The translations under genes and the position numbers were made by a program. The notes beneath the pieces were generated by a model. The model did no database searches. It was not told the origin of the DNA and saw only the letters and a list, made by a program, of their open reading frames with translations. A stretch of DNA of 64,000 nucleotides. Origin: Comamonas sp. JUb58 (GTDB lineage: Bacteria > Pseudomonadota > Gammaproteobacteria > Burkholderiales > Burkholderiaceae_C). The stretch lies in contig NZ_SOAL01000007.1 in NCBI RefSeq assembly GCF_004364775.1, positions 1 to 64,000 on the forward strand, read 5' to 3'. Numbering within the stretch: position 1 is the first letter of the stretch; each line of letters begins with the position of its first letter. This document shows, piece after piece, positions 14,596 to 59,965 of this stretch.

Positions 14596-14611
14596 CTAGT
14601 TTGTTGTGACC

Positions 14612-18332: not shown

Positions 18333-18354
18333 GCCCAGCAACCAGTAACCGGCG

Positions 18355-19289: not shown

Positions 19290-19481
19290 GGCATCAAAAA
19301 TACGTCTAGGAGAAAAAGAGGGGGCGGCTTGCTTGGTCAGGAATTGTGGGCTGGACGAAACTGCTTACAAATTTTTGTCCTACCGCTCAGCCATTGTGCA
19401 GCCGCTAGGTTAGATTTCTTGGATTAGGAATTTCGATAGATCACTGGTGGATCCACCGCCAGGATTGCGGAGGAGGATCCC

Positions 19482-19958
19482 ATGTTCAGTAGCGCCAATG
19501 ACATCAAGCCCCTGGTGACAGCCATCAACAATTGCCAGGACGAGGAAAGCATGATCAACCCGCTGACGGCTGCGCAGTGGGAGATCCTGGCCCCTTATCT
19601 GACGCAGACCCAGCTGGCGGCATCGCAGGTGCTGTTTCAGCAGGGTACGCAGGAGCGCACCCTGTTTTTCGTCGAAAGCGGCAGCCTCAGCGTGCATTTC
19701 GAGGATGAAAAGCAGCGCATTCGCCTGGCCATCGTCGGCGCGGGCTCCATTGTCGGCGAAGGCGCGTTCTTCTCGCACCAGCCGCGCAATGCCACCGTGC
19801 AGGCGGTGGCCGGTTGCCGCCTCTGGGGGCTGTCGAGCATTCGCTTTACCGAATTGTGTAACCGCCAGCCCACCGTGGCCGTGGCGCTGGCCATGGCGGC
19901 CGGATCGGTGCTGGCCAAGCGCCTGGGCAACCGAAAACGCCGCGTTGCCGCAACATAA
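19482..19958 (+). CDS. Stand-alone cyclic nucleotide-binding domain protein
   Basis: The 158 residues contain one cNMP-binding fold (about 35-135) like the sensor half of Crp/Fnr: QVLFQQGTQERTLFFVESG and the phosphate-binding-cassette region GAGSIVGEGAFF-xx-xPRNATVQA. There is no helix-turn-helix; the protein ends in a short basic tail (KRLGNRKRRV). It therefore cannot act as a normal Crp regulator and more likely signals through a partner. A GGAGGA ribosome site precedes the ATG. A perfect 12-base palindrome (GGTGGATCCACC, 19446-19457) lies 24 bases upstream and may affect translation. Confidence 0.75.
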   Translation: MFSSANDIKPLVTAINNCQDEESMINPLTAAQWEILAPYLTQTQLAASQVLFQQGTQERTLFFVESGSLSVHFEDEKQRIRLAIVGAGSIVGEGAFFSHQPRNATVQAVAGCRLWGLSSIRFTELCNRQPTVAVALAMAAGSVLAKRLGNRKRRVAAT

Positions 19959-20020
19959 AGCTTGGCATTGGTCAAATCGCGCGCGCTTTTCTGACCAGGG
20001 TATGCAATACTTCTCCCTAC

Positions 20021-20152
20021 AATTACAAACGCCTGTTGCGCGATGAAACGGGTGACCGTTGGGTATGCGCGGACAAGGAACAGCAAACCGAGGGTTTGCG
20101 GTTGACCCACAGCGTCCAGCCGCAGGCGGTACCCGCGTACGACGAGACTTGA
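20021..20152 (+). CDS. Possible unannotated small ORF without a clear start codon
   Basis: A 43-codon open stretch before the next gene encodes a charged, protein-like sequence (for example YKRLLRDETGDRWVCAD and QPQAVPAYDET) ending in TGA. No ATG or GTG lies in frame nearby; TTG or CTG codons at 20033-20038 are possible starts. An ATG in another frame at 20002 gives MQYFSLQLQT and stops at 20046, as if a one-base change separated them. TACAAT just upstream (20018-20023) could be a -10 element. It may be a small gene, a frameshifted remnant or chance. Confidence 0.2.
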   Translation, partial: NYKRLLRDETGDRWVCADKEQQTEGLRLTHSVQPQAVPAYDET

Positions 20153-20207
20153 CAAAGTATCAAGCATCGCGTCCGCGGGGCAAATTCTGATCAGGGTAGG
20201 GAGTGGC

Positions 20208-21011
20208 ATGTCTATATTTGCCAAATGGTTCAGTCGACCAGAAAAAAAATCGGCCTTTGCGCCCTTGGGGCCGCAAACCATGTTTGCCGAGCCGTTAGGC
20301 ATGGGTCAGCACGATATGCTGGCCGCCCAGAGCCCCTTGGTGTCCGCCAGGCCCATGGCGGCTGCACCCCAGCACGACAGCGCTGCGCCGCGCCCCGGTG
20401 AGCGCTCGGCCCGCCGCGAGATGGTGTATTCAGCCGTGCGCGAATCCATGGTGCGCTCCGGCATTCTGTCGGCCGGTTACAAATTCAAGGTGCTGGCGCT
20501 GGACAAGCGCGCCACGCAGTTCATCGTGATGGTGGATCTGGCGCAGGAGCACTGCGCCTCGCCCGACAAGCTCACACAGATCGAGGCGCTGATCGCCTAT
20601 TCGGCCAAGACCCGTTTCGAGATCGTCATCACCTCGGTGTACTGGCGCCTCAATGCCCAGCTGGGTGTGGTCAGCAGCAAGGCCGCCAGCGGCATTGCCG
20701 CGCCCCAGCCCGCCGTGGTGCCCGTGCCGCTGGGCATGGACCCGGTCGATGAAGCAGAAATTGCCGCCTTCAAGAAGGCCTTGCTGGAAGCGGCGATGAA
20801 CCCGGTGCCGGCCTTGGATGGGACAGCACCGGCCAGCCGCCCTGCGACCAGTGCCGCGCCCCGGCCCGCACCCATTGTGCCGCCGGCCCGCAGCGCCGCG
20901 CACAACGCCCAGATCGCCCGTGAAGCCGCGCAACGCGGTGGTGCACCCGCGCCCACGGCAGACACCAGCTTTGGCGGCCTGAGCAATACCCAGTACGGCG
21001 ATCTGCACTGA
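20208..21011 (+). CDS. Hypothetical protein, low-complexity flanks around a small folded core
   Basis: I do not recognise this 267-residue protein. It starts with a short basic segment (MSIFAKWFSRPEKKS), has a likely folded core around residues 68-150 (ARREMVYSAVRESMVRSG to ITSVYWRLNAQLG) that alternates strands and helices, and ends in an Ala/Pro-rich tail with TSFGGLSNTQYGDLH at the C-terminus. No signal peptide or membrane segment is evident, so it should be cytoplasmic. It stands alone and converges with apt. The core looks conserved in style, but I cannot name a family. Confidence 0.7.
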   Translation: MSIFAKWFSRPEKKSAFAPLGPQTMFAEPLGMGQHDMLAAQSPLVSARPMAAAPQHDSAAPRPGERSARREMVYSAVRESMVRSGILSAGYKFKVLALDKRATQFIVMVDLAQEHCASPDKLTQIEALIAYSAKTRFEIVITSVYWRLNAQLGVVSSKAASGIAAPQPAVVPVPLGMDPVDEAEIAAFKKALLEAAMNPVPALDGTAPASRPATSAAPRPAPIVPPARSAAHNAQIAREAAQRGGAPAPTADTSFGGLSNTQYGDLH

Positions 21012-45330: not shown

Positions 45331-45363
45331 CCCAAACGCTCGTTAGAGGATCCAGCGTTTGGG
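45331..45363. terminator. Hairpin between convergent genes, overlapping the LysR 3' end
   Basis: Ten-base-pair perfect stem CCCAAACGCT / AGCGTTTGGG with a 13-base loop. The right arm is coding for the last residues of the LysR protein. It could end transcripts of both convergent units, although no T run follows. Confidence 0.5.
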
Positions 45364-46263
45364 CAGCATGCGCTTGATCTCTGCCTTGGCCAGGTCGATA
45401 AAGGGCTTGAGCACCAAGGTGGAGGCATGGCGGTTGGAGACCACCATCGAGTACTCGCAGGGGACGGCGGGCTCGAACAGCACAAACTTCACATCGGGCC
45501 CGTGGTAGCTGCAGGCAGTCAGCGGGTCGATGATGGCCAGGCCGGCGCCGGCCTCGACCAGCTTGATGGCGGCATACGAGATCTGGGTCTCGATGTTCAC
45601 GCGGCGCTGCACGCGGTTGACCAGAAACAGGCTGTCGAGCTTGGTGCGGGTTTCCATCATGGTCGGCAGCGACACCAGGGGCTCGTCGACAAAGTCGATC
45701 GGTGACAGGCTGCTTCTGCGCGCCAGCTTGTGCCCGGCGGGCACCGCCACCACCAGCTTGCCGATCACCAAGGTCTCCAGCCCCTTGAAGCGGGTGTGGT
45801 CGGGCGAGAGCATCACAAAGCCGATATCGCAGCGCTCGGCCTGCACCATGTCCAGTGCGGCCGGCGAGGCCTGCATATGCAAGGTGACCAGGGTCTCGGG
45901 GAACTGGGCGCTGAACTTGGCAATGGCGCTGGGCAGGAACGAGGTCGCCATGGCGGGTGCGGCCGTCACCTCCAGTCGCTGCAGACGCCGAAAGCGCACG
46001 TTCTCGGAGATGTTGCGGATACGCTCGATGCCCATCAAGGCCTGGTGCACGTCTTCCAGCAGCAAGGTGGCTGCTGACGTCGGCTGCAGCCGGCTTTTGA
46101 CCCGCTCGAACAGCGGCATGCCGATGCGCGCCTCGAATTCGGCAATCAGCCGGGTGACCACCGGCTGGGTCACTTCCAGCGACTGGGCCGCTGCCGTGAC
46201 CGAGCGGCGCAGCATCAGCGCCCGAAACGCCTCCAGATGGCGCAGTGTGATCTTCTTATCCAT
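45343..46263 (-). CDS. LysR-family regulator resembling opine regulators (NocR/OccR type)
   Basis: The 306 residues begin ITLRHLEAFRALMLRRSVTAAAQSLEVTQPVVTRLIAEFE, a helix-turn-helix of the NocR/OccR branch of LysR proteins, followed by the effector domain (VTAAPAMATSFLPSAIAKF). The similarity is by memory and not measured. It diverges from the PotD-type operon, so it should control the oxidase pathway. An ATG 11 codons upstream is possible; neither start shows a clear ribosome site. Confidence 0.88.
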   Translation of the reverse strand: MDKKITLRHLEAFRALMLRRSVTAAAQSLEVTQPVVTRLIAEFEARIGMPLFERVKSRLQPTSAATLLLEDVHQALMGIERIRNISENVRFRRLQRLEVTAAPAMATSFLPSAIAKFSAQFPETLVTLHMQASPAALDMVQAERCDIGFVMLSPDHTRFKGLETLVIGKLVVAVPAGHKLARRSSLSPIDFVDEPLVSLPTMMETRTKLDSLFLVNRVQRRVNIETQISYAAIKLVEAGAGLAIIDPLTACSYHGPDVKFVLFEPAVPCEYSMVVSNRHASTLVLKPFIDLAKAEIKRMLPKRWIL

Positions 46264-46314
46264 GTTGTAAAGACATGAGTTGATGGCGTAATGCAATCGA
46301 ATAGTCTACAAAAT

Positions 46315-46327
46315 TACTAATTTAGTA
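46315..46327. promoter_or_regulatory. Candidate LysR operator upstream of the amine-oxidation operon
   Basis: The palindrome TACTAATTTAGTA (5-base arms around ATT) sits in a strongly A/T-rich part of the divergent gap, 52 bases from the LysR start and about 156 from the first binding-protein gene. Confidence 0.5.
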
Positions 46328-46482
46328 GTTATTTCAATGGCTTATCGATTGAGAAATTTCCATCCCATAAAGGCATTGAAGCAGGAATTCACCGATTCAA
46401 TTTTGCCTGCAGATGCCTATCATTGGCTACCAGACAGATTGAATTTCACTTTGGCCCCACCCACTTTCTGGAGGTAATTTCG

Positions 46483-47517
46483 ATGACCGCATCCCGTCTG
46501 GCTCTCTCCCTGGCTGCTGCCTTTGCTGCCACCGCTGGCATTGCCCATGCTGAAGACATTTATGTCGGTGGCTATGGCGGCTCGACCGAGACCGCTTTCA
46601 AGCAAAAGATCATTCCGGCCTATGAGAAGCTGACCGGCAACAAGGTCATCTACGTGCCTGGCAACTCCACCGACACCCTGGCCAAGCTCCAGGCGGAAAA
46701 GAACAACCCCCAGTACGACGTGGCGCTGATGGATGACGGCCCGATGGAGCAGGCCGTGCAGTTCGGCTTCTGCGGCGATATCGAAGCCGCACCGGTCTAC
46801 AACGACCTCTACCCCATGGCCAAGACGGCGGGCAACAAGTCGCTGAACCTGGGCGTCATCGCCACCGGCCTGTTCTACAACGAAGAAGCCTTCAAGAAGG
46901 CCGGCTGGGCAGCGCCTACCTCGTGGAACGACCTCAAGGACAAGAAGTTCAAGAGCAAGACCGTGATCCCGCCGATCAACAACGGCTACGGTCTGCAGAC
47001 CCTGCTGATGTTTGCCGAAATGAACGGCGGCGGCGCCAACAACATCGACCCTGGCTTCCAGGCGCTGATCAAGGATGTGGGCCCGAACGTGCTGGCCTGG
47101 GAACCCTCTCCCGGCAAGATGACCGAGCTGTTCCAGAACGGCGATGCCGTCATCGGCGTCTGGGGCAGCGGCCGCGTCAAGGCGCTGGCTGACACTGGCT
47201 TTCCCGTGAAGTTCGTCTACCCCAAGGAAGGCGCGTTTGCGCTGTTCACCTCCGTCTGCCCCGTTGCCAAGAAGCAGCCCAAGGCCGGCGCACAGAAGTT
47301 CATGCAGTTCCTCTACACCCCCGAGTCGCAAGCCGCGCTGGCCGAGACCCAGGCCTGGGGCCCCATGAACAGCAAGGTCAAGCTCGACGAGAAGGTCGCC
47401 AAGCAAGTGCCTTATGGCCCGGAACAGATCGCCCAGTTGAAGACCGTGGACTACAAGATCGTCAACGTCAAGCGCTCCGAATGGACCAATCGCTGGAACC
47501 GCACGGTCGAGCGTTAA
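46483..47517 (+). CDS. PotD-like ABC transporter substrate-binding protein
   Basis: Periplasmic binding protein of the spermidine/putrescine family (SBP_bac_8-like), 344 residues. A signal peptide (LALSLAAAFAATAGIAHA) precedes EDIYVGGYGGSTETAFKQKI. GGAGGT seven bases before the ATG fixes the start. Acidic polyamine-binding residues cannot be judged by eye; related proteins also bind opines, iron or other cations. It is the first gene of the nine-gene unit and is separated from potA by 205 bases holding a large inverted repeat. Confidence 0.93.
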   Translation: MTASRLALSLAAAFAATAGIAHAEDIYVGGYGGSTETAFKQKIIPAYEKLTGNKVIYVPGNSTDTLAKLQAEKNNPQYDVALMDDGPMEQAVQFGFCGDIEAAPVYNDLYPMAKTAGNKSLNLGVIATGLFYNEEAFKKAGWAAPTSWNDLKDKKFKSKTVIPPINNGYGLQTLLMFAEMNGGGANNIDPGFQALIKDVGPNVLAWEPSPGKMTELFQNGDAVIGVWGSGRVKALADTGFPVKFVYPKEGAFALFTSVCPVAKKQPKAGAQKFMQFLYTPESQAALAETQAWGPMNSKVKLDEKVAKQVPYGPEQIAQLKTVDYKIVNVKRSEWTNRWNRTVER

Positions 47518-47523
47518 GAGCCA

Positions 47524-47613
47524 CTCACACAACCCTTGATACTTCGTTGCAAAGCCTTGTCGTACCTTTTGTACTGCCTGCGGCTTTGCGCCTCGTCTCA
47601 AGGGCCGTGTGAG
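47524..47613. repeat. Large imperfect inverted repeat between the potD-like and potA-like genes
   Basis: Four paired blocks nest symmetrically: CTCACAC/GTGTGAG, CCCTTGA/TCAAGGG, AAAGCC/GGCTTT and GTAC/GTAC around TTTT. The 90-base structure begins 7 bases after the stop codon of the binding protein. It could terminate or protect the 3' end so that binding protein exceeds permease. A smaller hairpin (TCCCTGGC / GCCAGGGA) follows at 47627-47656. Confidence 0.75.
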
Positions 47614-47722
47614 CGCCTCTGATTCATCCCTGGCCTCCTTGCCAGGACGCCAGGGATAGGCGCTAAATCATACACAGGCCTGCCGCGCCGCCCCACGCGG
47701 GCCGCAGGCCCCGGAGTTTCAC

Positions 47723-48775
47723 ATGAGTTTTCTACGTATCGAGGGCCTCGCCAAGAGGTTCGGGGATTTTGTTGCCGTCAAGGACTTCAACCTGGAAGTC
47801 CATCGCGGTGAGTTCGTATCGCTGCTCGGCCCTTCGGGCTGCGGCAAGACAACCACCTTGCAGATGATTGCCGGCTTTCTGGACCCCAGCCAGGGCCGCA
47901 TCGTGCTCGACGGCAAGGACATCACCCAGCTGCGCCCCGAGCAGCGCGGCATGGGCGTGGTGTTCCAGAGCTATGCGCTCTTCCCCCACATGACGGTGGA
48001 GCAGAACATCTCCTTCGGTCTGGAGATGCGCAAACTCAGCCGCGACGTGATGCAAAAGCGCATCCAGGACGCGCTGGCACTGGTGCGCCTGCATGGCCTT
48101 GGTGCCCGTTACCCGCGTGAACTCTCCGGCGGCCAGCGCCAGCGTGTGGCCATTGCCCGCGCCTTGGCGATCCAGCCCGAAGTGCTGCTGCTGGACGAAC
48201 CCATGTCCAACTTGGACGCCAAGCTGCGCCAGGAAATGCACGTCGAGATGCGCGCCATCCAGCGCCAGCTGGGCATCACCACCATCCTGGTGACGCACGA
48301 CCAGGTCGAGGCGATGACCATGAGCGACCGCATTGCGGTGATGCACAACGGCCAGATCGCCCAGGTCGATTCGCCCCAGCAGATCTACGACAAGCCGACC
48401 TGCGACTTTGCCTCGGTGTTCCTGGGCAAGACCAACCGCTTCGAAGGCCAGGCCCAAAGCCGCGAGACCGTCAAGATCGGCGACATTGTGCTGGGCGCGC
48501 CCAGCCCGGTGGACAGCGGCCCGGTGGTGGTCTACCTGCGGCCCGAGCGCATCGAGGTGGCCCCGGCCGGCCAGGGCGGCCTGCCCGGCACGATCAAGAC
48601 CTTGCTGTTCCTGGGCAGCCAGTGGGTGGTCAATGTCAGCACCGGCTTGGGCGACATCCACATCAGCCTGCCCAATGCACGCCGCGCTGCACTGCATGAG
48701 GGCGACGAGGTGAGCCTGAACTGGTCGCCCGAGGATGTGCGCGTGCTGACCCAGCAGGAGGCCAGCCGTGGATAG
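47723..48775 (+). CDS. PotA-like ABC transporter ATP-binding protein
   Basis: ATPase of 350 residues with Walker A GPSGCGKTTT, signature LSGGQRQRVAIARAL, Walker B LLLDEPMSNLD and the H-loop LVTHDQVEAMTMSDR, followed by a C-terminal TOBE domain (about 265-345). This layout is typical of PotA and FbpC. It overlaps the first permease gene by 8 bases. Confidence 0.95.
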   Translation: MSFLRIEGLAKRFGDFVAVKDFNLEVHRGEFVSLLGPSGCGKTTTLQMIAGFLDPSQGRIVLDGKDITQLRPEQRGMGVVFQSYALFPHMTVEQNISFGLEMRKLSRDVMQKRIQDALALVRLHGLGARYPRELSGGQRQRVAIARALAIQPEVLLLDEPMSNLDAKLRQEMHVEMRAIQRQLGITTILVTHDQVEAMTMSDRIAVMHNGQIAQVDSPQQIYDKPTCDFASVFLGKTNRFEGQAQSRETVKIGDIVLGAPSPVDSGPVVVYLRPERIEVAPAGQGGLPGTIKTLLFLGSQWVVNVSTGLGDIHISLPNARRAALHEGDEVSLNWSPEDVRVLTQQEASRG

Positions 48776-49631
48776 CAAGAACCGCTGGAAACCCTGGGCC
48801 ATGTCCGGGCCCGGCCTGCTGGTCTTTGTGACCATGCTGCTGGCGCCACTGGCTTTGACGGCCATTCTGTCGCTGAATGTCTTCAATGGCATGGAAGGCA
48901 TCCAGAAGGTCTATTCGCTGAAGAACTACCTGGAGATCTTCAGCGACAGCTACTACCTGGAGATCTTTGGCCGTACGGCCCTGATGTCGGCCATCGTCAC
49001 CGTGCTCTGCGTGGTGCTGGGTGTGCCCGAGACCATCATCATCTCCCGCATGCGCGGCCGCTGGCGCGGTGTGTTTCTGCTGATCATCCTGGCACCGCTG
49101 CTGATCTCGGTGGTGGTGCGTACCCTGGGTTGGTCCATCCTGATGGGCAACAACGGCCTGATCAACAAGGGCCTGATGCTGTTCCACATCATCGATGAGC
49201 CGCTGCGCCTGGCCTTCACGATGACCGGCGTGACCATCGCCATGGTGCATGTGATGGTGCCCTTCATGGTGATCTCCGTCTGGGCCTCGCTGCAAAAGCT
49301 CGATCCCCAGGTCGAGAACGCCGGCCTGTCCCTGGGTGCCAGCCAGCGCACCGTGTTCCGCCGTGTGGTGCTGCCCCAGCTGCTGCCGGGCATTCTCTCG
49401 GGCAGCATCATCGTCTTCGCGCTTTCGGCATCGGCCTTTGCCACGCCGGCACTGCTGGGCGGACGCCGCCTCAAGGTGGTGGCTACGGCCGCCTACGACG
49501 AGTTCCTCAACACCTTGAACTGGCCGCTGGGCGCTGCCATTGCCGTGGTGCTGCTGGTTGCGAACGTCGTCATCATCGTGGGCTGCAATCGCTGGATCGA
49601 GCGCCGCTTCAAAGCTGTTTTCGAGGGTTGA
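48768..49631 (+). CDS. PotB-like ABC permease
   Basis: Six-segment permease of 287 residues with the EAA-loop sequence ENAGLSLGASQRTVFRRVVLPQL and a first segment LLVFVTMLLAPLALTAILSL. GTG start; it overlaps the ATPase gene. Pairs with the next permease to form the membrane channel. Confidence 0.93.
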   Translation: MDSKNRWKPWAMSGPGLLVFVTMLLAPLALTAILSLNVFNGMEGIQKVYSLKNYLEIFSDSYYLEIFGRTALMSAIVTVLCVVLGVPETIIISRMRGRWRGVFLLIILAPLLISVVVRTLGWSILMGNNGLINKGLMLFHIIDEPLRLAFTMTGVTIAMVHVMVPFMVISVWASLQKLDPQVENAGLSLGASQRTVFRRVVLPQLLPGILSGSIIVFALSASAFATPALLGGRRLKVVATAAYDEFLNTLNWPLGAAIAVVLLVANVVIIVGCNRWIERRFKAVFEG

Positions 49632-49634
49632 GCC

Positions 49635-50429
49635 ATGCAAAAAAACAGTCCTCTGGCGCTGGTCTTCCACGCGCTGTTCATCAGCTTCATTCTGGCGCCG
49701 CTGGTCGTGGTGGTGGCGGTGGCCTTTACCGACAAGGGCTTCATCTCCTTCCCCACCGATGGCCTGTCCTTGCGCTGGTTCCGCGCCATCCTGGATGCGA
49801 CGGAGATCAAGTCGGCCTTCTGGTTCTCGGCCAAGCTGGGCCTGGCCTCGGCCTCGATTGCCATCGCGCTGGCGGTGCCGGCTGCGCTGGCCATCACCCG
49901 CTACCGCTTTGCCGGCCGCGAGGTGCTGATGGCCTTTTTCATGTCGCCGCTGATGATTCCCCACGTGGTGCTGGGCGCGGCCTTCCTGCGCTTTTTCAAC
50001 ATCGCCGGGCTGTCGGGTTCGTTCTTCTGGCTCATGTTCACCCATGTGATCTGCATCATGCCCTATGCCTTGCGCATGGTGCTGGCCGCAGCCACGGGCA
50101 TGAACCGCGAGATCGAGCATGCCGGCCTGTCGCTGGGCGCATCGCGCGGCACCGTCTTCATGCGCATCACCGTGCCCATGCTGATGGCCGGTATCGCCGG
50201 CGGCTGGATGCTCTCCTTCATCCAGAGCTTTGACGAGTTGACGATGACGGTGTTTGTGGCCACCCCCGGCACGATGACCTTGCCGGTCGCCATGTACAAC
50301 CACATCGCCCAGACCATCGACCCGCTGGTGACCTCGGTTTCTACCGTGCTGATCGTCGGCACCCTGGTGCTGATGGTCATCCTGGACAAGCTGGTCGGCC
50401 TGGAGAAGGTCCTGATTGGCAAAGGTTGA
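49635..50429 (+). CDS. PotC-like ABC permease
   Basis: Second permease of 264 residues with EAA loop EHAGLSLGASRGTVFMRITVP and six predicted segments. It begins 3 bases after potB and is followed after 9 bases by the oxidase gene, so transport and oxidation genes form one transcript. Confidence 0.93.
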   Translation: MQKNSPLALVFHALFISFILAPLVVVVAVAFTDKGFISFPTDGLSLRWFRAILDATEIKSAFWFSAKLGLASASIAIALAVPAALAITRYRFAGREVLMAFFMSPLMIPHVVLGAAFLRFFNIAGLSGSFFWLMFTHVICIMPYALRMVLAAATGMNREIEHAGLSLGASRGTVFMRITVPMLMAGIAGGWMLSFIQSFDELTMTVFVATPGTMTLPVAMYNHIAQTIDPLVTSVSTVLIVGTLVLMVILDKLVGLEKVLIGKG

Positions 50430-50438
50430 GAGAGAAGA

Positions 50439-51581
50439 ATGAACAACAACACACATAGCAGCGATGTCATTGTGATTGGGGGAGGCTTGGTGGGCAGTTC
50501 CGTGGCTTACGGGCTGCTGCGCCAGGGTCTGTCGGTCACGATCATCGACGGCGCGGACGACACGATTCGCCCTTCACGAGGAAACTTCGGCCTGGTCTGG
50601 GTGCAGGGCAAGGGCTACGGCATGGCGGACTACGCCCGCTGGAGCTTTGGCTCGGCCCGCCAGTGGCCTGCACTGCGCGATGAGCTGCAGGCGCAGACCG
50701 GCATCGACGTCGAGCTGATGCAGCCCGGCGGCCTGCACATCTGCCTGAGCGAGGAAGAGATGGCCCAGCGCCTGGCCAAGCTCCATTGGCTGGAGTCCGA
50801 GGTGGGCGACCCCGCCTACCGCACTACGGTGCTGAGCCGCGACGAGGCCGCCCAGCAGCTGCCGGGCCTGGGCCCCGAGGTGGTGGGCGCCACCTACTCG
50901 GCGATGGACGGCCACTGCAACCCCTTGAAGCTGCTGCGGGCGCTCTACAGCGCCAACATCGCCAAGGGCGCGCGCATCCACAACCGCATGCAGGTCGATG
51001 CCATCCGCAAGGAAGGCGGCATCTTCCACGTCAGCGCTGGAACGCATACCTGGCAGGCGCCGCGCATCGTGATTGCTGCCGGCCATGCCACGCAAAAGCT
51101 GTCGGCCATGGTGGGCATGTTTGTGCCGGTGCGTCCCAACAAGGGCCAGGTCTTCATCACCGAGCGGGTGCAGCCCTTCTTGCCCCACCCCACCAACTAT
51201 GTGCGCCAGACCGATGAGGGCACGGTGCAGATCGGCGACTCGATGGAGGAGCTGGGCTTTGACGACATGGTGCGCGTGCCGGTCAGCGCCAAGATCGCGG
51301 CGCGTGCGGTCAAGTGCTTCCCGTTGCTGGCCAAGGCCCGCGTGGTGCGCACCTGGGCCGCGCTGCGGGTGATGTCGCCCGACGGCTTTCCTATGTACCA
51401 GGAGTCCGAGAGCCATCCCGGCGCCTTTGCGGTGACCTGCCACAGCGGCGTCACCCTGGCGGCCCAGCACGTCTTTTGCATCGCCCCCTGGGTGGCCACG
51501 GGCCTGCGGCCGGCCGCCATCGAGGCATTCCCCGCGACACGATTTACGCCGGAAACGGAAGTGAAACCCTATGGCATCTAA
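50439..51581 (+). CDS. FAD-dependent amino acid/amine oxidase, DadA-like (first copy)
   Basis: The 380-residue flavoprotein starts with the FAD-binding GGGLVGSSVAYGLLRQGLSVTII pattern and has NFGLVWVQGKG in the place of the DadA-family substrate loop. The C-terminal sequence (HSGVTLAAQHVFCIAPWVATG) completes the FAD site. It belongs to the D-amino acid oxidase family used as beta subunits of opine and D-hydroxyproline dehydrogenases. It overlaps the 2Fe-2S gene by 11 bases. A second such subunit occurs three genes later. Confidence 0.9.
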   Translation: MNNNTHSSDVIVIGGGLVGSSVAYGLLRQGLSVTIIDGADDTIRPSRGNFGLVWVQGKGYGMADYARWSFGSARQWPALRDELQAQTGIDVELMQPGGLHICLSEEEMAQRLAKLHWLESEVGDPAYRTTVLSRDEAAQQLPGLGPEVVGATYSAMDGHCNPLKLLRALYSANIAKGARIHNRMQVDAIRKEGGIFHVSAGTHTWQAPRIVIAAGHATQKLSAMVGMFVPVRPNKGQVFITERVQPFLPHPTNYVRQTDEGTVQIGDSMEELGFDDMVRVPVSAKIAARAVKCFPLLAKARVVRTWAALRVMSPDGFPMYQESESHPGAFAVTCHSGVTLAAQHVFCIAPWVATGLRPAAIEAFPATRFTPETEVKPYGI

Positions 51582-51912
51582 AGCCCTTTTCAAATACCTC
51601 CCTGGCCACCAGGCCGGGTCCGCTGGCACGGTGTCGGTGCTGGTCAACGGCGCCGTGGTGCGCATGTCGCCCGCCGCCAGCCTGGCCGCTGGCCTGTTGG
51701 CGGCTGGCGTTACCGCGGTGCGTGTCTCGCCCGTGGGCCAGGGCGCCCGCGCGCCTTACTGCATGATGGGCGTGTGCTTTGAGTGCATGGTCGACGTCAA
51801 TGGCCGGCCCAACCAGCAGGCCTGCCTGATCACCCCCGAAGACGGCATGGAAGTGACCACCATGCAAGCGGCGCCCAGCCTGCTGGATGCGCAGGAGGCC
51901 AAGCATGTCTAA
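51571..51912 (+). CDS. Small [2Fe-2S] protein (gamma subunit of an amine dehydrogenase)
   Basis: The 113 residues carry Cys in the plant-ferredoxin-like spacing PYCMMGVCFECMV then a Cys 12 residues on (QQACL), as in HcnA and the gamma subunits of heteromeric amino-acid dehydrogenases (LhpB-, OoxA/NoxA-type complexes). It should pass electrons between flavin sites. It overlaps both neighbours, indicating coupled synthesis of the complex. Confidence 0.9.
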   Translation: MASKALFKYLPGHQAGSAGTVSVLVNGAVVRMSPAASLAAGLLAAGVTAVRVSPVGQGARAPYCMMGVCFECMVDVNGRPNQQACLITPEDGMEVTTMQAAPSLLDAQEAKHV

Positions 51913-53302
51913 CCCCACTATCCCTTTGAACGACGCGCCCAGCCAGGTGCGCGACCTGGTCGTGATCGGCGCCGGCCCCGCCGGCATGGCAGCGGCCCTG
52001 GCGGCCAAGCGGCGCGGCCTGGATGTGCTGCTGCTGGACGAGCAACCCAAGGTGGGCGGCCAGATCTACCGCAGCATCACCGAGACCGATGCCCAGCGTG
52101 AGCGCATCCTCGGCTCCGACTATGTCTACGGCAAATCGCTGGCCGAGCAGATCCGCACCAGTGGCCTGACCCACTGGGCGGGCGCCTCGGTCTGGCAGAT
52201 CGACCCTGACAAGACGGTGCATGTGCTGCGCAACGACCGCACCACCCGCATCGAGACCAAGTCGCTGGTGGTTGCCACCGGCGCGATGGAGCGGCCTTTC
52301 CCCGTGCCGGGCTGGACCCTGCCCGGTGTGATGACCGCAGGCGCCGGCCAGATCCTGCTGAAGAACGCCGCCGTTGTACCCCAGGTGCCGGTGGTGCTGG
52401 CGGGCTGCGGCCCCTTGCTCTATTTGCTGGCCGCGCAGTACCTGCGTGCCGGTGTGGAAATCCGCGCGGTGCTCGACACCTCGGCGGGCACCGACTGGCG
52501 TTTGGCGATCAGCCATGCCTCGTCGCTGCTGGCCGGCTGGGGCTATGTGCGCAAGGGCCTGGGCCTGCTGCGCGAGATCAAGTCGGCCGGCATTCCCTTC
52601 TTCAAGGATGTGGGCGGCCTGCGCATTGAGGGGGAAGACGCGGTGCGGCTGGTGAGCTTTAGCAGCGCGGGCCGCGCCCAGCAGATCGACTGCGAACTGG
52701 TGCTGCTGCACCAGGGCGTGGTGCCCAACACCCAGGTGTCCTGGTCCTTGCGGGCCGAGCACCATTGGGACGATGAACAGCTGTGCTGGGTGCCCGTGCT
52801 CGATAGATGGGGCCAGACCAGCCTGCCCGGCATCTATATCGCCGGTGACGGCGCCGGCATTGGCGGCGCACTGGTGGCCGAGATGCAGGGTGCCTTGGCC
52901 GGCATCGCCGTGGCCAACAGCCTGGGCTTTGGCACGAGCGAAGACGGTGCCCAGCAGCGTGCGCAGATCGCGCAGCATCTGCGCATCCGCCCCTTCCTGA
53001 ACCAGCAGTACCGGCCCAAGGACGAGTTCCGCATTCCGGCCGACGAGGTCGTCGTCTGCCGCTGCGAAGAGGTGACTGCCGGCTCGATCCGCGAGCAGGT
53101 GCAACTGGGCTGCGTGGGCCCGAACCAGACCAAGTCCTTCAGCCGCTGCGGCATGGGCCCCTGCCAGGGCCGCCAATGCGGTTTGACGGTGACCGAAATC
53201 ATCGCCAAGGAAGCCAAGCTGTCGCCGCAGGACGTGGGCTACTACCGCATCCGTCCGCCGCTCAAGTCGCTGTCGCTGGCCCAGCTGGCCGCAGGCCTGT
53301 GA
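51905..53302 (+). CDS. FAD/NAD(P)-binding oxidoreductase with C-terminal [2Fe-2S] BFD-like domain (HcnB-like)
   Basis: Alpha-type subunit of 465 residues: N-terminal FAD-binding GAGPAGMAAALAAKRRGL, a pyridine-nucleotide-disulfide-reductase-type middle and a C-terminal cysteine cluster VCRCEEVTAGSI ... CGMGPCQGRQCG resembling BFD-like 2Fe-2S domains. This architecture is that of HcnB, LhpA/OoxA and other heteromeric dehydrogenases. The start overlaps the small Fe-S gene by 8 bases. It likely accepts electrons from the flavin oxidase subunit(s). Confidence 0.92.
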   Translation: MSNPTIPLNDAPSQVRDLVVIGAGPAGMAAALAAKRRGLDVLLLDEQPKVGGQIYRSITETDAQRERILGSDYVYGKSLAEQIRTSGLTHWAGASVWQIDPDKTVHVLRNDRTTRIETKSLVVATGAMERPFPVPGWTLPGVMTAGAGQILLKNAAVVPQVPVVLAGCGPLLYLLAAQYLRAGVEIRAVLDTSAGTDWRLAISHASSLLAGWGYVRKGLGLLREIKSAGIPFFKDVGGLRIEGEDAVRLVSFSSAGRAQQIDCELVLLHQGVVPNTQVSWSLRAEHHWDDEQLCWVPVLDRWGQTSLPGIYIAGDGAGIGGALVAEMQGALAGIAVANSLGFGTSEDGAQQRAQIAQHLRIRPFLNQQYRPKDEFRIPADEVVVCRCEEVTAGSIREQVQLGCVGPNQTKSFSRCGMGPCQGRQCGLTVTEIIAKEAKLSPQDVGYYRIRPPLKSLSLAQLAAGL

Positions 53303-53303
53303 C

Positions 53304-54443
53304 ATGGCCGGCATAGCCAGCCCGGCATCGGGCAGCAGCGATGTGCTGGTGATCGGGGGCGGCCTGCAAGGCCTCTCCAGCGCCTTCCAGCTGGCCAAGG
53401 CAGGTTTGCGCGTGCGCCTGCTGGAGGCCGAGTACTGCGGCCGCCATGCCTCCGGTGTCAATGCCGGTGGCGTGCGCACCCTGGGCCGCCATGTGGCCGA
53501 GATTCCGCTGGCCTTGGCCGCGCGCGAGCAGCTCTGGCATGGCCTGGCCGACATCATCGGCAGCGACGGCGGCTTTGTGCCCTCGGGCCAATTGCAGGTG
53601 GCCGAGAACGAGGCCGATGAGATCAAGGCCAAGGCGCGCGTGGCCATGCTCAGCGGCCTGGGTTTTTTCCATGAGCAATGGGTGGACCAGCAGCAGGTGC
53701 GCGAGCTGGTGCCCAGCATCTCGCCCCATGTGGTGGGCGGCATCTGGGCCGATCGCGATGGCTATGCGCTGCCCTACAAGGTGGCCACGGCCTACCGCCT
53801 GGCGGCAGAAAAGCTGGGCGTGCAGATCGTCGAGCAGGCGCCTGTGCTGCGGGTGGACCAGCAAAGCGGCATGTGGCAGGCCAGCACCGCGCAGGGCAGG
53901 TTCCATGCACCCTGGCTGGTCAACACCGCAGGCGCCTGGGCGGCAGATTTTGCGGCGCAGGTGGGCGACCCGGTGCCGATGGTGGCGGGCGGCCTGATGC
54001 TGATGGTGACCCAGCGTGTGGCGCCGTTTGTCAAACCCGTGCTGGGCGCGATGGGCCGGCCGCTGTCGTTCAAGCAGTTCGACAATGGCACGGTAGTGAT
54101 TGGTGGCGGCCTGCGCTGCGAGGCCGATGCCAGCCAGCGCCATGCGATGGTCGACCTCAACCGCATGCCCAAGAGCGCGCAGACCGTCATCGACCTGTTC
54201 CCGCATCTGCGCGATGTGAGCATCGCGCGGGCCTGGACCGGTATCGAGGGCTTTATGCCCGATGAGATTCCTGTCATCAGCCCGAGTGCCGGGGCTGATA
54301 ACCTCGTGCATGCCTTTGGCTTCTCTGCCCATGGCTTTGAGCTCAGTCCGATTACCGGCTGCATTGTGGCCGAGCTGGTGACCCAGGGCACCAGTACCTT
54401 GCCGATTTCGGCGTTTCGTGTAGACCGCTTTGCTGCTGCCTAG
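53304..54443 (+). CDS. FAD-dependent oxidoreductase, DadA-like (second copy, HcnC-like)
   Basis: The 379 residues begin with the FAD motif VIGGGLQGLSSAFQLAKAGLRV and have SGVNAGGVRTLGRH as the flavin loop, then HAFGFSAHGFELSPITG near the C-terminus. It differs strongly from the first DadA-like gene in this operon. It is the beta-like subunit of an alpha/beta/gamma dehydrogenase, and starts one base after the alpha-like gene stop. Which of the two copies pairs with the Fe-S proteins is not known. Confidence 0.9.
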   Translation: MAGIASPASGSSDVLVIGGGLQGLSSAFQLAKAGLRVRLLEAEYCGRHASGVNAGGVRTLGRHVAEIPLALAAREQLWHGLADIIGSDGGFVPSGQLQVAENEADEIKAKARVAMLSGLGFFHEQWVDQQQVRELVPSISPHVVGGIWADRDGYALPYKVATAYRLAAEKLGVQIVEQAPVLRVDQQSGMWQASTAQGRFHAPWLVNTAGAWAADFAAQVGDPVPMVAGGLMLMVTQRVAPFVKPVLGAMGRPLSFKQFDNGTVVIGGGLRCEADASQRHAMVDLNRMPKSAQTVIDLFPHLRDVSIARAWTGIEGFMPDEIPVISPSAGADNLVHAFGFSAHGFELSPITGCIVAELVTQGTSTLPISAFRVDRFAAA

Positions 54444-54476
54444 CTGCAGCGGTCGTATTTTTATCTCAGGGAGTAA

Positions 54477-54836
54477 ATGATGAGCAACGACATCCAACGT
54501 ATTGACAGCAATGAACGCCTCAGCCGCATCGTTGTGCACGGCGGCGTAGTCTATGTGGCGGGCGTGACCGCTGGCGACATCTCGGGCGACATTGGCGCCC
54601 AGACCCGCGACGTGCTGGCCAAGATCGACGGCTACCTGCAGCAAGCAGGCACCAGCAAGGCGCGCCTGCTGACCGTGCAGATCTGGCTCAAGGACATCGA
54701 CAAGGACTTCGCCGGCATGAACCAGGTCTGGGGCGAATGGGCCGACAAGGCCAATATGCCGACCCGCGCGACCTGCGAAGCCAAGCTGGCTCGTCCCGAG
54801 CTGCTGGTCGAAATCATCGTGAGCGCAGCCGTTTAA
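54477..54836 (+). CDS. RidA/YjgF-family imine deaminase
   Basis: The 119-residue protein fits the Rid family, which hydrolyses reactive 2-imino acids to oxo acids and ammonia. The substrate-binding Arg is visible in PTRATCEAKLARPELLVEIIVSA (Arg97), with the strand order expected. It lies last in the amine-oxidation unit, 33 bases after the second DadA-like gene, exactly where an imine product would be made. Two adjacent ATGs are possible starts, differing by one residue. Confidence 0.92.
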   Translation: MMSNDIQRIDSNERLSRIVVHGGVVYVAGVTAGDISGDIGAQTRDVLAKIDGYLQQAGTSKARLLTVQIWLKDIDKDFAGMNQVWGEWADKANMPTRATCEAKLARPELLVEIIVSAAV

Positions 54837-54852
54837 GCGTCTGCTACACAGC

Positions 54853-54882
54853 AAAATGCCAGCCCTCGGGCTGGCATTTTTT
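54853..54882 (+). terminator. Rho-independent terminator after ridA
   Basis: Twelve-base-pair stem AAAATGCCAGCC / GGCTGGCATTTT with a tight loop and a T run. It ends the nine-gene transcript and can also serve the convergent GST gene. Confidence 0.9.
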
Positions 54883-54900
54883 GTTGGAAGATTCAGCAGA

Positions 54901-55596
54901 TCAGGGGATCAGCAAACCGCGCTGCACGGCCGGACGCTGCAGCCAGTGGCTGAGCACGCGGCTGACTTCGGGGTACTGGCCCCAGCCGATCAGGGCCTCG
55001 GCGTTGTAGCGCACGATCATGTTGCGGATCCAGGGGAAGATGGCCATATCGGCAATCGTGTAGGTGTCGCCGGCCACCCATTCCTTGCCGGCCAGGTGCT
55101 TGTTCAGCACGGTCAGCAGGCGCTTGGATTCGTCCACATAGCGGGTCAGGGGGCGCTTGTCCTCAAAATCCTTGCCGGCAAAGATGTTGAAGAAACCGAC
55201 CTGGCCAAACATCGGGCCGATGCCGCCCATCTGGAACATCAGCCACTGCAGGGTCTCGTAGCGCTTGACGGGATCCTGCGGCAGGAACATGCCGGTCTTC
55301 TCGGCCAGGTAGACCATGATGGCGCCGGACTCGAACAGTGCAATCGCTTGGCCGCCCGGGCCATTGGGGTCGATGATGGCCGGGATCTTGTTGTTCGGGA
55401 AGGTGCCGACAAACTCGGGCGAGGTCTGGTCATTGCTCTCGAAGCTGATCTTGTGCACTTCATAGGGCATGCCCAGTTCTTCGAGCAGGATGGAGACCTT
55501 GACGCCATTGGGCGTGGGCAGCGAATACAGCTGCAGCAGATCAGGCCGGGTGGCCGGCCATTTGCGGGTGATACTGAAATCGGCAAGGGTGCTCAT
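54901..55596 (-). CDS. Glutathione S-transferase family protein (YghU/YfcG-like)
   Basis: The 231 residues have a thioredoxin-fold N-terminal domain (YSLPTPNGVKVSILLEELG, the cis-Pro region NNKIPAIID and ESGAIMVYLAEK) and an all-helical C-terminus (YTIADMAIFPWIRN). The N-terminal Thr-Pro-Asn stretch is that of glutathione-dependent disulfide-bond oxidoreductases. GGAGAG seven bases before the chosen ATG fixes the start over another five codons upstream. Confidence 0.93.
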   Translation of the reverse strand: MSTLADFSITRKWPATRPDLLQLYSLPTPNGVKVSILLEELGMPYEVHKISFESNDQTSPEFVGTFPNNKIPAIIDPNGPGGQAIALFESGAIMVYLAEKTGMFLPQDPVKRYETLQWLMFQMGGIGPMFGQVGFFNIFAGKDFEDKRPLTRYVDESKRLLTVLNKHLAGKEWVAGDTYTIADMAIFPWIRNMIVRYNAEALIGWGQYPEVSRVLSHWLQRPAVQRGLLIP

Positions 55597-55683
55597 GAGG
55601 GATCTCTCCAAACAATAGGCAGGCGGCTTGCAGGTGTGCGCCTTGCCAGCAGCATAAAGCAGATTGGGCGCAGGCCTGTCGGC

Positions 55684-56244
55684 CTACTTCTCGTCCTTGG
55701 GCTTCACAAATTCGATGCGCAGGCCCTCGGCGGTCACCTTGAAGGTGGCCGGCAGCTCGGCGGCCTTGTCCAGGCGGTCCAGGTCCTCCTGGCGCAAGGT
55801 GTGTACCACCACATCCTCCATCGCATGCTCGGCCGCGCGCGGCGCATAGGCATGCAGCATCACCTCCATCGCCTCGGGCAGGCCGTTCATCTGCAGCGAC
55901 TTCACCTGCACCTGGGTGGCGCGCAGGCTGTGGTCGGCCGGCGAATAGCGCAGTGCAAAGTCCAGCACCATGGTGCCGTCCAGGCGGTGGGGCAGCACCT
56001 TGCCAGACATGTCGGCGCTCATCGTCGCCTGGATGCGGTTGCTCTCGGGCAGCAGCTGCAGGCTGGGGGCCTGCACATCAAGCTGCAGAAAGCCAAGCAG
56101 TGGATAAGAGCGGGGGAAGGACTTGGCCACGATGGTCTGCAGCTCGGCGGCAGACAGGGTGTAACTGGGAGGGGCAAGCAGGGAGCAGGCGGCCAGCATG
56201 CTGGCGGCAAACAGGCTGGAGGCCAAAAAAAGGCGGCGGCGCAT
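55684..56244 (-). CDS. DUF1439 (YceB-like) lipoprotein
   Basis: The 186 residues begin with a lipoprotein signal (MRRRLFLASSLFAASMLAAC, lipobox LAAC, lipidated Cys20), then a beta-rich fold with YTLSAAELQTIVAKSFPRSYPL and the DUF1439 pattern of YceB. The frame is open further upstream, but the signal peptide sets the start. It is probably an outer-membrane or periplasmic lipoprotein of unknown role. An inverted repeat is just upstream. Confidence 0.88.
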   Translation of the reverse strand: MRRRLFLASSLFAASMLAACSLLAPPSYTLSAAELQTIVAKSFPRSYPLLGFLQLDVQAPSLQLLPESNRIQATMSADMSGKVLPHRLDGTMVLDFALRYSPADHSLRATQVQVKSLQMNGLPEAMEVMLHAYAPRAAEHAMEDVVVHTLRQEDLDRLDKAAELPATFKVTAEGLRIEFVKPKDEK

Positions 56245-56386: not shown

Positions 56387-56593
56387 CAGGTAAAGATGGC
56401 CCATCTCCTTGTTTTATTGGGGTAAATGCCCACTTTTCGCGGGCCGCGTGAGCGTGAGCCGATGTAATTTTCGTGTGAGAATTCGCAGGCTTTCCGGCTG
56501 CGGATGATGGCGCGCGCTGGTGCACCAACGTCCTGCCTCCCGGTTCGAAAGCGCTGCATCCATGCAGTGCCAGCCAAGATCCCAAGGACAGAC

Positions 56594-58207
56594 ATGAATT
56601 TCGCATTGAACAAGCGCGCCCTGGCGCTGGTGGGTGCCTCGCTCATTGGCGCCGCCCACGCCCAACACCTGACCATTGCCCTGGCCTCCGAGCCGACAGC
56701 GGCCGATCCCCACTACCACAAGATGACGACGAACGACTCGTTCTCGGCGCATGTCTATGACTCGCTGGTGGGCCGTACTGCCAACATGGAGCTGGTGCCT
56801 TCGCTGGCCACCTCGTGGAAGAACCTGGACGACCTGACCTGGGAGTTCAAGCTGCGCAAGGATGTGAAGTTCTCCAACGGCGCGCCCTTCACCTCGCAGG
56901 ACGTGCTGTTCACCATCTGCCGCACCTTGAACAACGAGACCAATGTCTCGCAGTCGTACATGGATACGACCAAGCTGATCACCGACGTGCAGACCCCCGA
57001 TGACCTGACCGTGATCGTCAAGACCGCCGAGCCTGTGCCGCTGATCCCGGCCGAGTTTGCGCGCAACCTGCCCATCATCTCCAGCAGCATCATCAAGCAC
57101 GACAAGCTCAAGTTCGCGCCCAAGGAAGGCTGCGGCTACAAGGGCCCCTGGCCCACGGTGGCCGATTTCAACAGCGGCAAGATGGCTATTGGCACCGGCC
57201 CGTTCAAGCTCAAGTCCTATGTGAAGGGCAATGCCATCACCCTGGAGCGCAATGACGGCTACTGGGGCCCCAAGCCTGCATGGCAGACCGTCAAGATGGT
57301 GGCCGTGCCCAATGCCGGCCCCCGCCTGACCGGCCTGATGTCTGGTGACTACGACCTGATCGAGAACCCGGCCGCCCGCGACCTGGCCCGCATCAAGGAA
57401 GACAAGAAGCTGGCCTTTGTCGCCACGCCATCCACCCGCCTGGTGTTCTTCCAGCCCGACATTGGCCGCGACAAGTCGCCCTTTGTGACCGCCCCTGATG
57501 GCAAGAACCCGCTGCAGGACCTGCGCGTGCGCAAGGCCATCAACATGGCCATCGACCGCAAGGCCATCGTGCAGCGCCTGATGGACGGCATGGCCACCCC
57601 CGCCTACCAGTACATGCCCGATGGCATGTTTGGCAGCGTGAAGGCCCCCGAGATCAAGTTCGATCCCGAAGGCGCCAAGAGGCTGCTGGCCGAAGCTGGC
57701 TACCCCAACGGCTTCGAGATGACCCTGTCGTCGACCAACGACCGTTACATGAACGATGCGCAGATCTCGCAAGCCGTGGCGCAGTACCTGACCCGCATCG
57801 GCATCAAGACCAAGGTCGATGCGATGACCGCCTCCATCTACTTCCCCAAGCGCGCCAAGCGTGAGTTCAGCTTCCCGATGGGTGGCTGGCCTTCGGAGAA
57901 CGGCGAAGCCTCGGGCCTGTTCCAGCTGTGGGTGGCCAGCACCGATTCGCCCAAGGGCCTGGGCACCAGCAACTACGGCGCGTTCAGCAATGCCGATTTC
58001 GACAAGGTCTACATCCCGGCAGCCAAGACGGTGGACTCTGCCAAGCGCAAGGCCATGCTGGAGCAAGCCACCCAGATCGCACTGGACAACGTGCCGCTGA
58101 TCCCGCTGCACTTTGAAAGCAGCATCTGGGCTTTCAAGAAAGAGCTGAGCTACGAAGGCCGCCGCGACCAGTACACGCTGGCGACGTCGGTCAAGCCCGC
58201 CAAGTAA
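56594..58207 (+). CDS. Peptide ABC transporter substrate-binding protein (first tandem copy)
   Basis: Periplasmic SBP_bac_5 protein of 537 residues. Signal peptide (ALALVGASLIGAAHA), then QHLTIALASEPTAADPHYHKMTTND. Family blocks KFSNGAPFTSQDVLFT, ATPSTRLVFFQPDIGRD and KAINMAIDRKAIVQRLMDG are clear. AAGGACAGAC precedes the ATG. The product is strikingly similar to the next gene (same blocks, same C-terminal SYEGRRDQYTLA), so they are a tandem duplication. Both probably feed the permease encoded downstream with different ligand preference. Confidence 0.93.
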   Translation: MNFALNKRALALVGASLIGAAHAQHLTIALASEPTAADPHYHKMTTNDSFSAHVYDSLVGRTANMELVPSLATSWKNLDDLTWEFKLRKDVKFSNGAPFTSQDVLFTICRTLNNETNVSQSYMDTTKLITDVQTPDDLTVIVKTAEPVPLIPAEFARNLPIISSSIIKHDKLKFAPKEGCGYKGPWPTVADFNSGKMAIGTGPFKLKSYVKGNAITLERNDGYWGPKPAWQTVKMVAVPNAGPRLTGLMSGDYDLIENPAARDLARIKEDKKLAFVATPSTRLVFFQPDIGRDKSPFVTAPDGKNPLQDLRVRKAINMAIDRKAIVQRLMDGMATPAYQYMPDGMFGSVKAPEIKFDPEGAKRLLAEAGYPNGFEMTLSSTNDRYMNDAQISQAVAQYLTRIGIKTKVDAMTASIYFPKRAKREFSFPMGGWPSENGEASGLFQLWVASTDSPKGLGTSNYGAFSNADFDKVYIPAAKTVDSAKRKAMLEQATQIALDNVPLIPLHFESSIWAFKKELSYEGRRDQYTLATSVKPAK

Positions 58208-58258: not shown

Positions 58259-58333
58259 GTGGGCGATGAGGAATAGGTAGTGGCACGGCACTTGCATTGC
58301 CCTACGAGGCTTTTAACCAAGGAGGAACGACCT

Positions 58334-59965
58334 GTGTCTATCAAGAAGATCTCGCGCCGCACACCCTTGTCGCTGGCCAGCCTGGCTGCGTTGGCCCTGC
58401 CTGCGGGCATGGCTGCCGCCCAGTCGCTGACCATCGGCCTCGCCTCCGAGCCCACCGCCGCTGACCCGCATTACCACAAGGTCACCACCAACGACGCGTT
58501 CTCGGCCCATATCTTCGAGTCGCTGATCAACCGCAACGCGCAGATGGAGCTGATCCCGGGGCTGGCCCAGTCCTGGCGCGCCGTCGATGACAACACCTGG
58601 GAGCTGAAGCTGCGCCAGGGCGTGAAGTTCTCCAATGGCGAGCCCTTCACCTCCAAGGATGTGCTGTTCACCTTGTGCCGCGTGCTGAACAACGAGACCA
58701 ATGTCTCACGCTCCTACATGGAGCCGGCTCAGAGCTTCAGCGATGTGCAGACGCCCGATGACTACACCGTCATCATCAAGAGCGAGCGGCCCATCCCGAC
58801 GATGCCCAATGAGCTGGCGCGTTCGCTGCCCATCATCTGGAGCGGCATCGCCAAGTTCGACAAGCTGCGCTTTGCGCCCAAGGAAGGCTGCGGCGTCACC
58901 TCGCCCTGGCCCACGGTGGCCGATTTCAACACCGGCAAGCTGTCCATCGGCACGGGCCCTTACAAGCTCAAGTCCTATGTCAAGGGCACCGGTATCGAGA
59001 TGGAGCGCAACGAAGGCTACTGGGGCAGCAAGCCGCACTGGAAGACCGTCAAGATGGTGCCCGTGCCCAATGCCGGCCCGCGCCTGACGGGCCTGATGTC
59101 CGGGGACTACGACATCATCGAAAGCCCCGCTGCGCGCGACCTGCCGCGCATCAAGGACAACAGCAAGCTCGACTTTGTGGCCACGCCGTCCACCCGGCTG
59201 ATCTTCTTCCAGCCGGATGCCGGCCGCGCACAAAGCCCGTTTGCCAAGGCCGCCGATGGCAAGAACCCGCTGCAGGACCTGCGCGTGCGCCAGGCCATCA
59301 ACATGGCCATTGACCGCAAGGCCATCGTGCAACGGCTGATGGATGGCATGGCCACCGTCGCCAACCAGTACATGCCCACGGGCATGTTCGGCAGCCTCGA
59401 CAAGCCCACCGAGATCAAGTTCGATCCCGAAGCCGCCAAGAAGCTGCTGGCCGAGGCCGGCTACCCGCAAGGCTTTGAGCTGACCCTGACCACCACCAAT
59501 GACCGCTACATCAACGACGGCCAGATCGCGCAGGCGGTGGCCCAGTACCTGACCCGCATCGGCATCAAGACCACGGTGGATGCACAGGCGGCAGCCATCT
59601 ATTTCCCCAAGCGCGCCAAGCGCGAGTTCAGCTTTGCGATGGGCGGCTGGCCATCGGAGAACGGCGAGGCCTCGGGCCTGTTCCAGTACTGGGTGGCCAC
59701 TACCGACAAGGACAAGGGCCTGGGCACCAGCAACTATGGCGGCTTTAGCCTGCCCGCGTTTGACCAGGTGTTTGTGCCGGCCATGTCGCAGATGGACGCG
59801 AACGCGCGCAAGGCCGCCTACCAGCAGGCCACGCAGATTGCGCTGGCCAATGTACCCCTGATTCCGCTGCACTTCGAGAGCAGCATCTGGGCATTCAAGA
59901 AAGGGTTGAGCTACGAAGGCCGACGCGACCAGTACACGCTGGCCATGTCGGTCAAACCGAAATAG
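58334..59965 (+). CDS. Peptide ABC transporter substrate-binding protein (second tandem copy)
   Basis: Close paralogue of the preceding gene, 543 residues, SBP_bac_5 family. It starts with GTG, shown by GGAGG about 8 bases before it, since no ATG is in frame at the right place. Signal peptide (LASLAALALPAGMAAAQ) then SLTIGLASEPTAADPHYHKVTTND. Shared blocks include FAPKEGCG and FPKRAKREFSFAMGGWPSENGEASGLF. Differences are spread over the length, as expected of an older duplication. Confidence 0.92.
   Translation: MSIKKISRRTPLSLASLAALALPAGMAAAQSLTIGLASEPTAADPHYHKVTTNDAFSAHIFESLINRNAQMELIPGLAQSWRAVDDNTWELKLRQGVKFSNGEPFTSKDVLFTLCRVLNNETNVSRSYMEPAQSFSDVQTPDDYTVIIKSERPIPTMPNELARSLPIIWSGIAKFDKLRFAPKEGCGVTSPWPTVADFNTGKLSIGTGPYKLKSYVKGTGIEMERNEGYWGSKPHWKTVKMVPVPNAGPRLTGLMSGDYDIIESPAARDLPRIKDNSKLDFVATPSTRLIFFQPDAGRAQSPFAKAADGKNPLQDLRVRQAINMAIDRKAIVQRLMDGMATVANQYMPTGMFGSLDKPTEIKFDPEAAKKLLAEAGYPQGFELTLTTTNDRYINDGQIAQAVAQYLTRIGIKTTVDAQAAAIYFPKRAKREFSFAMGGWPSENGEASGLFQYWVATTDKDKGLGTSNYGGFSLPAFDQVFVPAMSQMDANARKAAYQQATQIALANVPLIPLHFESSIWAFKKGLSYEGRRDQYTLAMSVKPK

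Follow-up and report, generated by a model that had tools for sequence, protein, structure and literature searches.

A Comamonas operon with two divergent flavoprotein subunits probably encodes two opine-type dehydrogenases built on one shared Fe-S module

In the genome of Comamonas sp. JUb58 we analysed a window, meaning the whole stretch of 64,000 nucleotides at the start of contig NZ_SOAL01000007.1 (contig 7), and found an operon of four genes, B1, C, A and B2, which most probably encodes two alternative opine-type dehydrogenases, AB1C and AB2C, that share a single Fe-S module A/C and act on an opine-like substrate. The B1-C-A-B2 layout was already published in 2015 for a soybean symbiont and the Comamonas operon is a new example of this known arrangement; no paper treating the operon itself was found, judged by titles. 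A preliminary description of this DNA had offered two alternative enzymes with common electron-transfer subunits or a single four-subunit complex with both flavoproteins, and had called neither a textbook form. The former is well supported by homology to OdhB1-C-A-B2 from Bradyrhizobium japonicum, and the suggested novelty overlooks Watanabe et al. 2015 (PMC4575208), who give the same gene order.

Table 1: Genes of the B1-C-A-B2 operon and its surroundings (positions within the window).
Feature	Position	Strand	Family evidence
LysR-type regulator, divergent from operon	45343..46296	-	PF03466/PF00126
ABC substrate-binding protein (SBP), PotD/PhnS-like	46423..47517	+	PF13416 E 2.8e-34; PhnS/PotD models weak, below cut-off
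ABC transporter ATPase, PotA-like	47723..48775	+	PF00005, PF08402
ABC permease, PotB-like	48768..49631	+	PF00528; best model PotB, below cut-off
ABC permease, PotC-like	49635..50429	+	PF00528; best model PotC, below cut-off
B1, catalytic flavoprotein beta, OdhB1/OoxB-NoxB type	50439..51581	+	PF01266 E 1.1e-57; motif RTW
C, gamma subunit, [2Fe-2S] motif C-x4-C-x2-C-x12-C	51571..51912	+	PF13510 (Fer2_4) E 5.1e-21
A, alpha, Pyr_redox_2 FAD domain + Fer2_BFD + SO_alpha_A3	51905..53302	+	PF07992, PF04324, PF17806
B2, second catalytic flavoprotein beta, OdhB2-like	53304..54443	+	PF01266 E 7.6e-62; motif RAW
RidA-family protein (imine/enamine hydrolase by family)	54477..54836	+	PF01042 E 5.6e-23

The four genes are contiguous on the plus strand within a locus of LysR regulator, SBP-PotABC transporter and RidA (Table 1), and the α-like and γ-like genes had been placed correctly between the two flavoproteins, as two full-length DAO (PF01266) proteins flank the Fe-S pair; the coordinates given for the set (50439–54443) are right too. 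There is an overlap of 11 bp between B1 and C and one of 8 bp between C and A if A is taken to start from the ATG at 51905, 6 nt past GGAGG (the frame is open from the ATG at 51887), and 1 bp separates A from B2. C is a Fer2_4 protein of 113 aa, and A is 98% identical to the α of Comamonas koreensis. The LysR gene keeps its position in four near Comamonas loci and in many order-wide four-gene regions. Scans of positions 46000–55700 returned no promoter-like site, against 1.3 expected from shuffled sequences, and 11 terminator-like sites versus 5.3 expected. The fold of a hairpin at 54432–54453, which spans the B2 end and precedes RidA, is no better than shuffles (z 0.31). Directly 3' of the operon a glutathione S-transferase is encoded on the minus strand (54901–55611), and still within the window two SBP_bac_5 (DppA/OppA-like) proteins (56504–58207 and 58280–59965), 76% identical over 513 residues, represent a tandem duplication.

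B1 and B2 had been described as DadA-like proteins sharing only FAD motifs, but they align end to end with 103 of 382 columns identical (27%, E 5e-25), and a second alignment gave 102 identical positions out of 358. That they are a recent duplicate is ruled out by this 27–28% identity together with their separate deep clades. The DadA label turned out to be loose, as the glycine oxidase ThiO model of NCBIfam scores highest with either protein (SoxB comes second for B2), all scores are below the cut-offs, and the tree identifies both as βs of the OoxB/OdhB kind; the DAO family assignment holds. The cut-offs for heterotetrameric sarcosine oxidase were missed as well, with 120.1 of 1164 bits for soxA and 127.3 (B2) and 50.8 (B1) of 529.45 bits for soxB. 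Both βs show the features of OdhABC βs, namely DAO family membership, an N-terminal GxGxxG and R-x-W, the latter being a putative FMN-site motif located at the α/β contact according to PMC4575208. The γ motif C-x4-C-x2-C-x11-12-C is present in C and in 133 of 134 γs in all, the sole failure being the γ of a second cluster in the same genome. For the α subunits the motif C-x-C-x15-20-C-x4-C, as worded in PMC4575208, fits none of 135 sequences, OoxA from the Ach5 Ti plasmid included, whereas a spacing of x30-36 fits all 135; A itself carries C-x-C...C-x4-C, and it seems that the printed wording and not the family is off.

Phylogenetic trees place the two βs apart. Among 53 β rows, in a tree whose bootstrap did not converge and whose D-HypDH/Hcn-like join was flagged as long branches, B1 falls into one clade with OoxB from Ach5 and the NoxB-type β (support 100/99) and B2 into another (98/96), where its sister group, the second-cluster βs, joins it with 100/100. 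Similarly, A clusters with OoxA and the NoxA-type α among 38 α rows (100/99). The OoxB-C-OoxA reference from the Ach5 Ti plasmid has its genes named in the record; for the NoxB-type reference, a locus of pTi_CFBP2788, the label is our own and based on the arginase and octopine/nopaline dehydrogenase genes next to it, and the D-HypDH references are loci defined by an adjacent hydroxyproline-epimerase-family gene. The best PDB match of B2 is 1y56_B (E 1.2e-26), which B1 matches with only 2.4e-10, and A matches the α of the same entry (E 2.3e-14), which we take to be the archaeal L-proline dehydrogenase complex (PDH1). As far as tested, with neither an archaeal L-ProDH nor a named type-2 β among the rows of the β and α trees, the trees agree with those of Watanabe et al. 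2015 (PMC4575208), according to which the second β type is near archaeal L-ProDH and apart from type 1.

The layout is not a chance arrangement, because it recurs in 33 of 80 α-related loci, in 32 of 45 regions selected by B2 and in all four regions from near Comamonas genomes (L107–L110); the two larger sets were chosen by similarity and their counts are not natural frequencies. The 80 loci are the best of at least 567 α-related stretches in a genome scan, and the other 47 show B1-C-A beside the α, with four of them ending before B2 could be visible and two having a B2-like gene near on the opposite strand. Relatives of B2 (E 1e-90 or better) occur at 45 places in 43 of 397 genomes from the alphaproteobacterial order of a Microvirga genome. 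Besides the 32 four-gene regions there are eight with C-A-B2, one with a B2-type β before C-A, two cut by contig ends inside the α, one without α in the 8 kb before B2 and with its contig ending just behind, and one in which an intact B2, whose stop is simply the gene end, follows B1-C-A at a distance of 1.2 kb from A. Including seven further loci the total set holds 72 four-gene systems (71 distinct, as L021 and L107 are the same), with a RidA gene behind in 60 and PotABC-like genes in front in 63 of them. Within Comamonas the locus is accessory, a B2 orthologue being found in five of 37 genomes, our strain included.

Ten genomes with a B1-C-A locus have a B2-like gene elsewhere in three cases (45–57% identity), only a more distant one in three and none at 1e-40 in four, and in one of the first three the gene at the distant site is located directly behind another α; B1-C-A is thus a label for the locus rather than for the whole genome. 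Mapped on an α tree with 50 rows, the four-gene label requires 12 changes, at least six of them forced by the starred branches alone. Close αs stand beside different β sets, namely B1 alone, B2 alone or the two together. In Agrobacterium fabrum pAt2788b (11935–20525) we observed B1-C-A-RidA and a separate C-A-B2 followed by hydantoinase genes 2.6 kb apart on one plasmid, which resembles the four-gene set in split form; the α of the former is annotated as two CDS.

Several observations bear on the partnership between the βs and A. R-x-W is present in all 72 B1 and all 72 B2 of the four-gene systems, in 52/52 upstream βs of loci without B2 behind the α and in 12/12 βs behind the α in loci without B1. 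As a control we used other DAO proteins from the same genome, 11 being recovered of 14 full-length ones (17 full matches less B1, B2 and B'), and R-x-W was found in none of them by careful alignment (R in one by a quicker alignment). Against five relatives dN/dS is 0.09–0.15 for B1 and 0.08–0.11 for B2, and both βs are under purifying selection. In a mirror-tree analysis of distances given the transporter genes (39 non-redundant of 62 usable four-gene loci) partial co-variation was 0.52 for B1-A (0/2000 permutations) and 0.20 for C-A (37/2000), and the B2-A pairing gets no support from these loci (-0.03; 1390/2000). The method is weak, as the transporter controls themselves score 0.28, 0.35, 0.41 and -0.07 with A. 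Only one other α was detected in the genome at E 1e-6; it is 37% identical to A and located with its own γ and β about 61 kb downstream.

The biochemical precedent is the OdhB1-C-A-B2 cluster (bll7193-bll7190) from B. japonicum USDA110, as described by Watanabe et al. 2015 (PMC4575208). According to this paper each β assembles with the common α and γ, and OdhAB1C and OdhAB2C were both purified with FAD and FMN. AB2C is an octopine dehydrogenase with 0.504 units/mg, AB1C, at 0.0095, is almost inactive, and B2 was the β preferred by A and C, so the Comamonas B1, by analogy, may be minor or may act on a different substrate. The term oxidase from the preliminary description appears doubtful, since the homologue from P. 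putida is reported in the same paper to use dyes, ferricyanide and cytochrome c as electron acceptors but not oxygen. For Comamonas we propose that B1 and B2 would be two divergent catalytic βs, each with FAD and an amine-oxidation site, and that A (FAD, BFD-type 2Fe-2S) and C (2Fe-2S) would form one electron-transfer module. Each β would dock on A over the FMN site with its R-x-W, and this docking would lead to two alternative αβγ enzymes, AB1C and AB2C (α4β4γ4 in the homologues). The enzymes would oxidise the C–N bond of an opine-like secondary amine (N-carboxyalkyl amino acid) imported by the Pot-type ABC transporter, electrons would pass through A/C to the respiratory chain, and RidA could aid imine hydrolysis. 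What we infer in this model is the assembly as in the homologue, the substrate, the natural electron acceptor and the roles of RidA and the transporter.

A larger A-B1-B2-C complex with two different active sites might be expected from four adjacent co-directional genes and from the FMN-site motif in both βs. It is nevertheless hardly credible, since according to PMC4575208 no AB1B2C was formed in B. japonicum, where B1 was not pulled down by His-tagged B2 when all four proteins were co-expressed, and since αs of the same clade stand beside B1 only or B2 only, so that neither β seems to need the other. One could also imagine that a single β is the working partner and the other a stand-alone flavoprotein or a relic in the same operon. 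The very weak AB1C activity in B. japonicum (PMC4575208), the absent B2-A co-variation and the cases in which B2 is not coupled to A (opposite strand in two of the 80 loci, 1.2 kb behind A in one of the 45 regions) would fit to this, but the dN/dS values of both βs, the retention of both with R-x-W in all 72 four-gene systems and the eight regions in which B2-clade βs follow their own C-A without B1, identifying the B2 type as an α partner itself, make it unlikely. The three-subunit build is also found in D-hydroxyproline dehydrogenase and hydrogen cyanide synthase, but an enzyme of either kind instead of an opine-type dehydrogenase is very unlikely: in the trees of 53 and 38 rows the D-HypDH βs and αs form clades of their own (100/100 each), the βs being outside the B1 and B2 clades, and a search of the Comamonas genome for the proline-racemase/hydroxyproline-epimerase family gave no match. 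Two candidate loci, presumably HcnABC-like as judged by gene order and size only, are also apart from the genes of the window in both trees.

By family, our best guess for the substrate of the two proposed dehydrogenases is an N-carboxyalkyl amino acid or another secondary amine acid. A variant with the same shared-module mechanism, in which the substrates are no crown-gall opines and each of B1 and B2 oxidises a different secondary or N-substituted amino acid (e.g. two stereoisomers or chain types), comes near to an even chance. It is favoured by the near inactivity of the B. japonicum B1 enzyme on octopine (PMC4575208) and by the Pot-type instead of an OccQMPT-type transporter. Moreover, arginase or ornithine cyclodeaminase (OCD) genes adjoin both Ti loci (Ach5 and pTi_CFBP2788), whereas in our strain the single arginase match has the best OCD match as its direct neighbour on contig 6 (22696–24667), both unlinked to the operon, and the own-genome search gave no match to either on contig 7. 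A crown-gall opine as substrate is not assured. On the other hand the α clade holds the octopine enzyme OoxA, and arginine derived from octopine could still be used via the contig 6 genes. A search of the genome for NAD-type opine dehydrogenases (PF02317) gave no match, but its control also matched nowhere and absence cannot be claimed.

A more general but tentative view, which we hold somewhat short of even, is that the α/γ pair is a general electron-transfer socket with βs gained, lost or swapped often in the Proteobacteria, and that B1 and B2 are kept for different substrates supplied by one import system. If true, the operon would encode a two-specificity enzyme on one socket and the real substrate of B1 would not be octopine. 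Exchange of the catalytic subunit, which has been published but little followed, is here extended beyond a single rhizobium, to an operon layout kept in Beta-, Gamma- and Alphaproteobacteria in which the partner sets of one α family change repeatedly. No new kind of system emerges from this, but it sharpens the question why two βs persist, whether each has a substrate of its own and what B1 oxidises.

Compared to known systems, the archaeal complex 1y56 has a β like B2 and an α like A, but only one β, and in archaeal L-ProDH the γ-like part is fused to the α N-terminus (PMC4575208). In two Pseudomonas genomes (L064, 12087–13112; G468, contig 4 near 341574) a proline-racemase-family gene was observed about 3 kb from an OdhA-type α, which hints that the substrate of these systems may be cyclic or a D-amino acid. 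The second cluster of our own strain (contig 7, ~113088–119809), located outside the window in the order PotA-PotB-PotC-C'-A'-B'-SBP, has the same αβγ build and its own PotABC- and SBP-like genes; however, it contains one β in the order C-A-B, with A' 37% identical to A and B' 38–39% to B2. The octopine oxidase from the Ach5 Ti plasmid shares the order B1-C-A-RidA, a RidA-family gene following OoxA there as well, and the same β and α clades, but has a single β, the OccQMPT transporter and ornithine cyclodeaminase, and no Pot-type transporter. Closest is Odh from B. japonicum, even if this organism belongs to another bacterial class than Comamonas; in a comparison that rests on gene order, OoxAB and the description in PMC4575208 and not on a residue by residue alignment, both systems have the same gene order and subunit types, the γ [2Fe-2S] motif and two divergent R-x-W βs, with the type-1 β grouping with OoxB/NoxB and the second β type standing apart.
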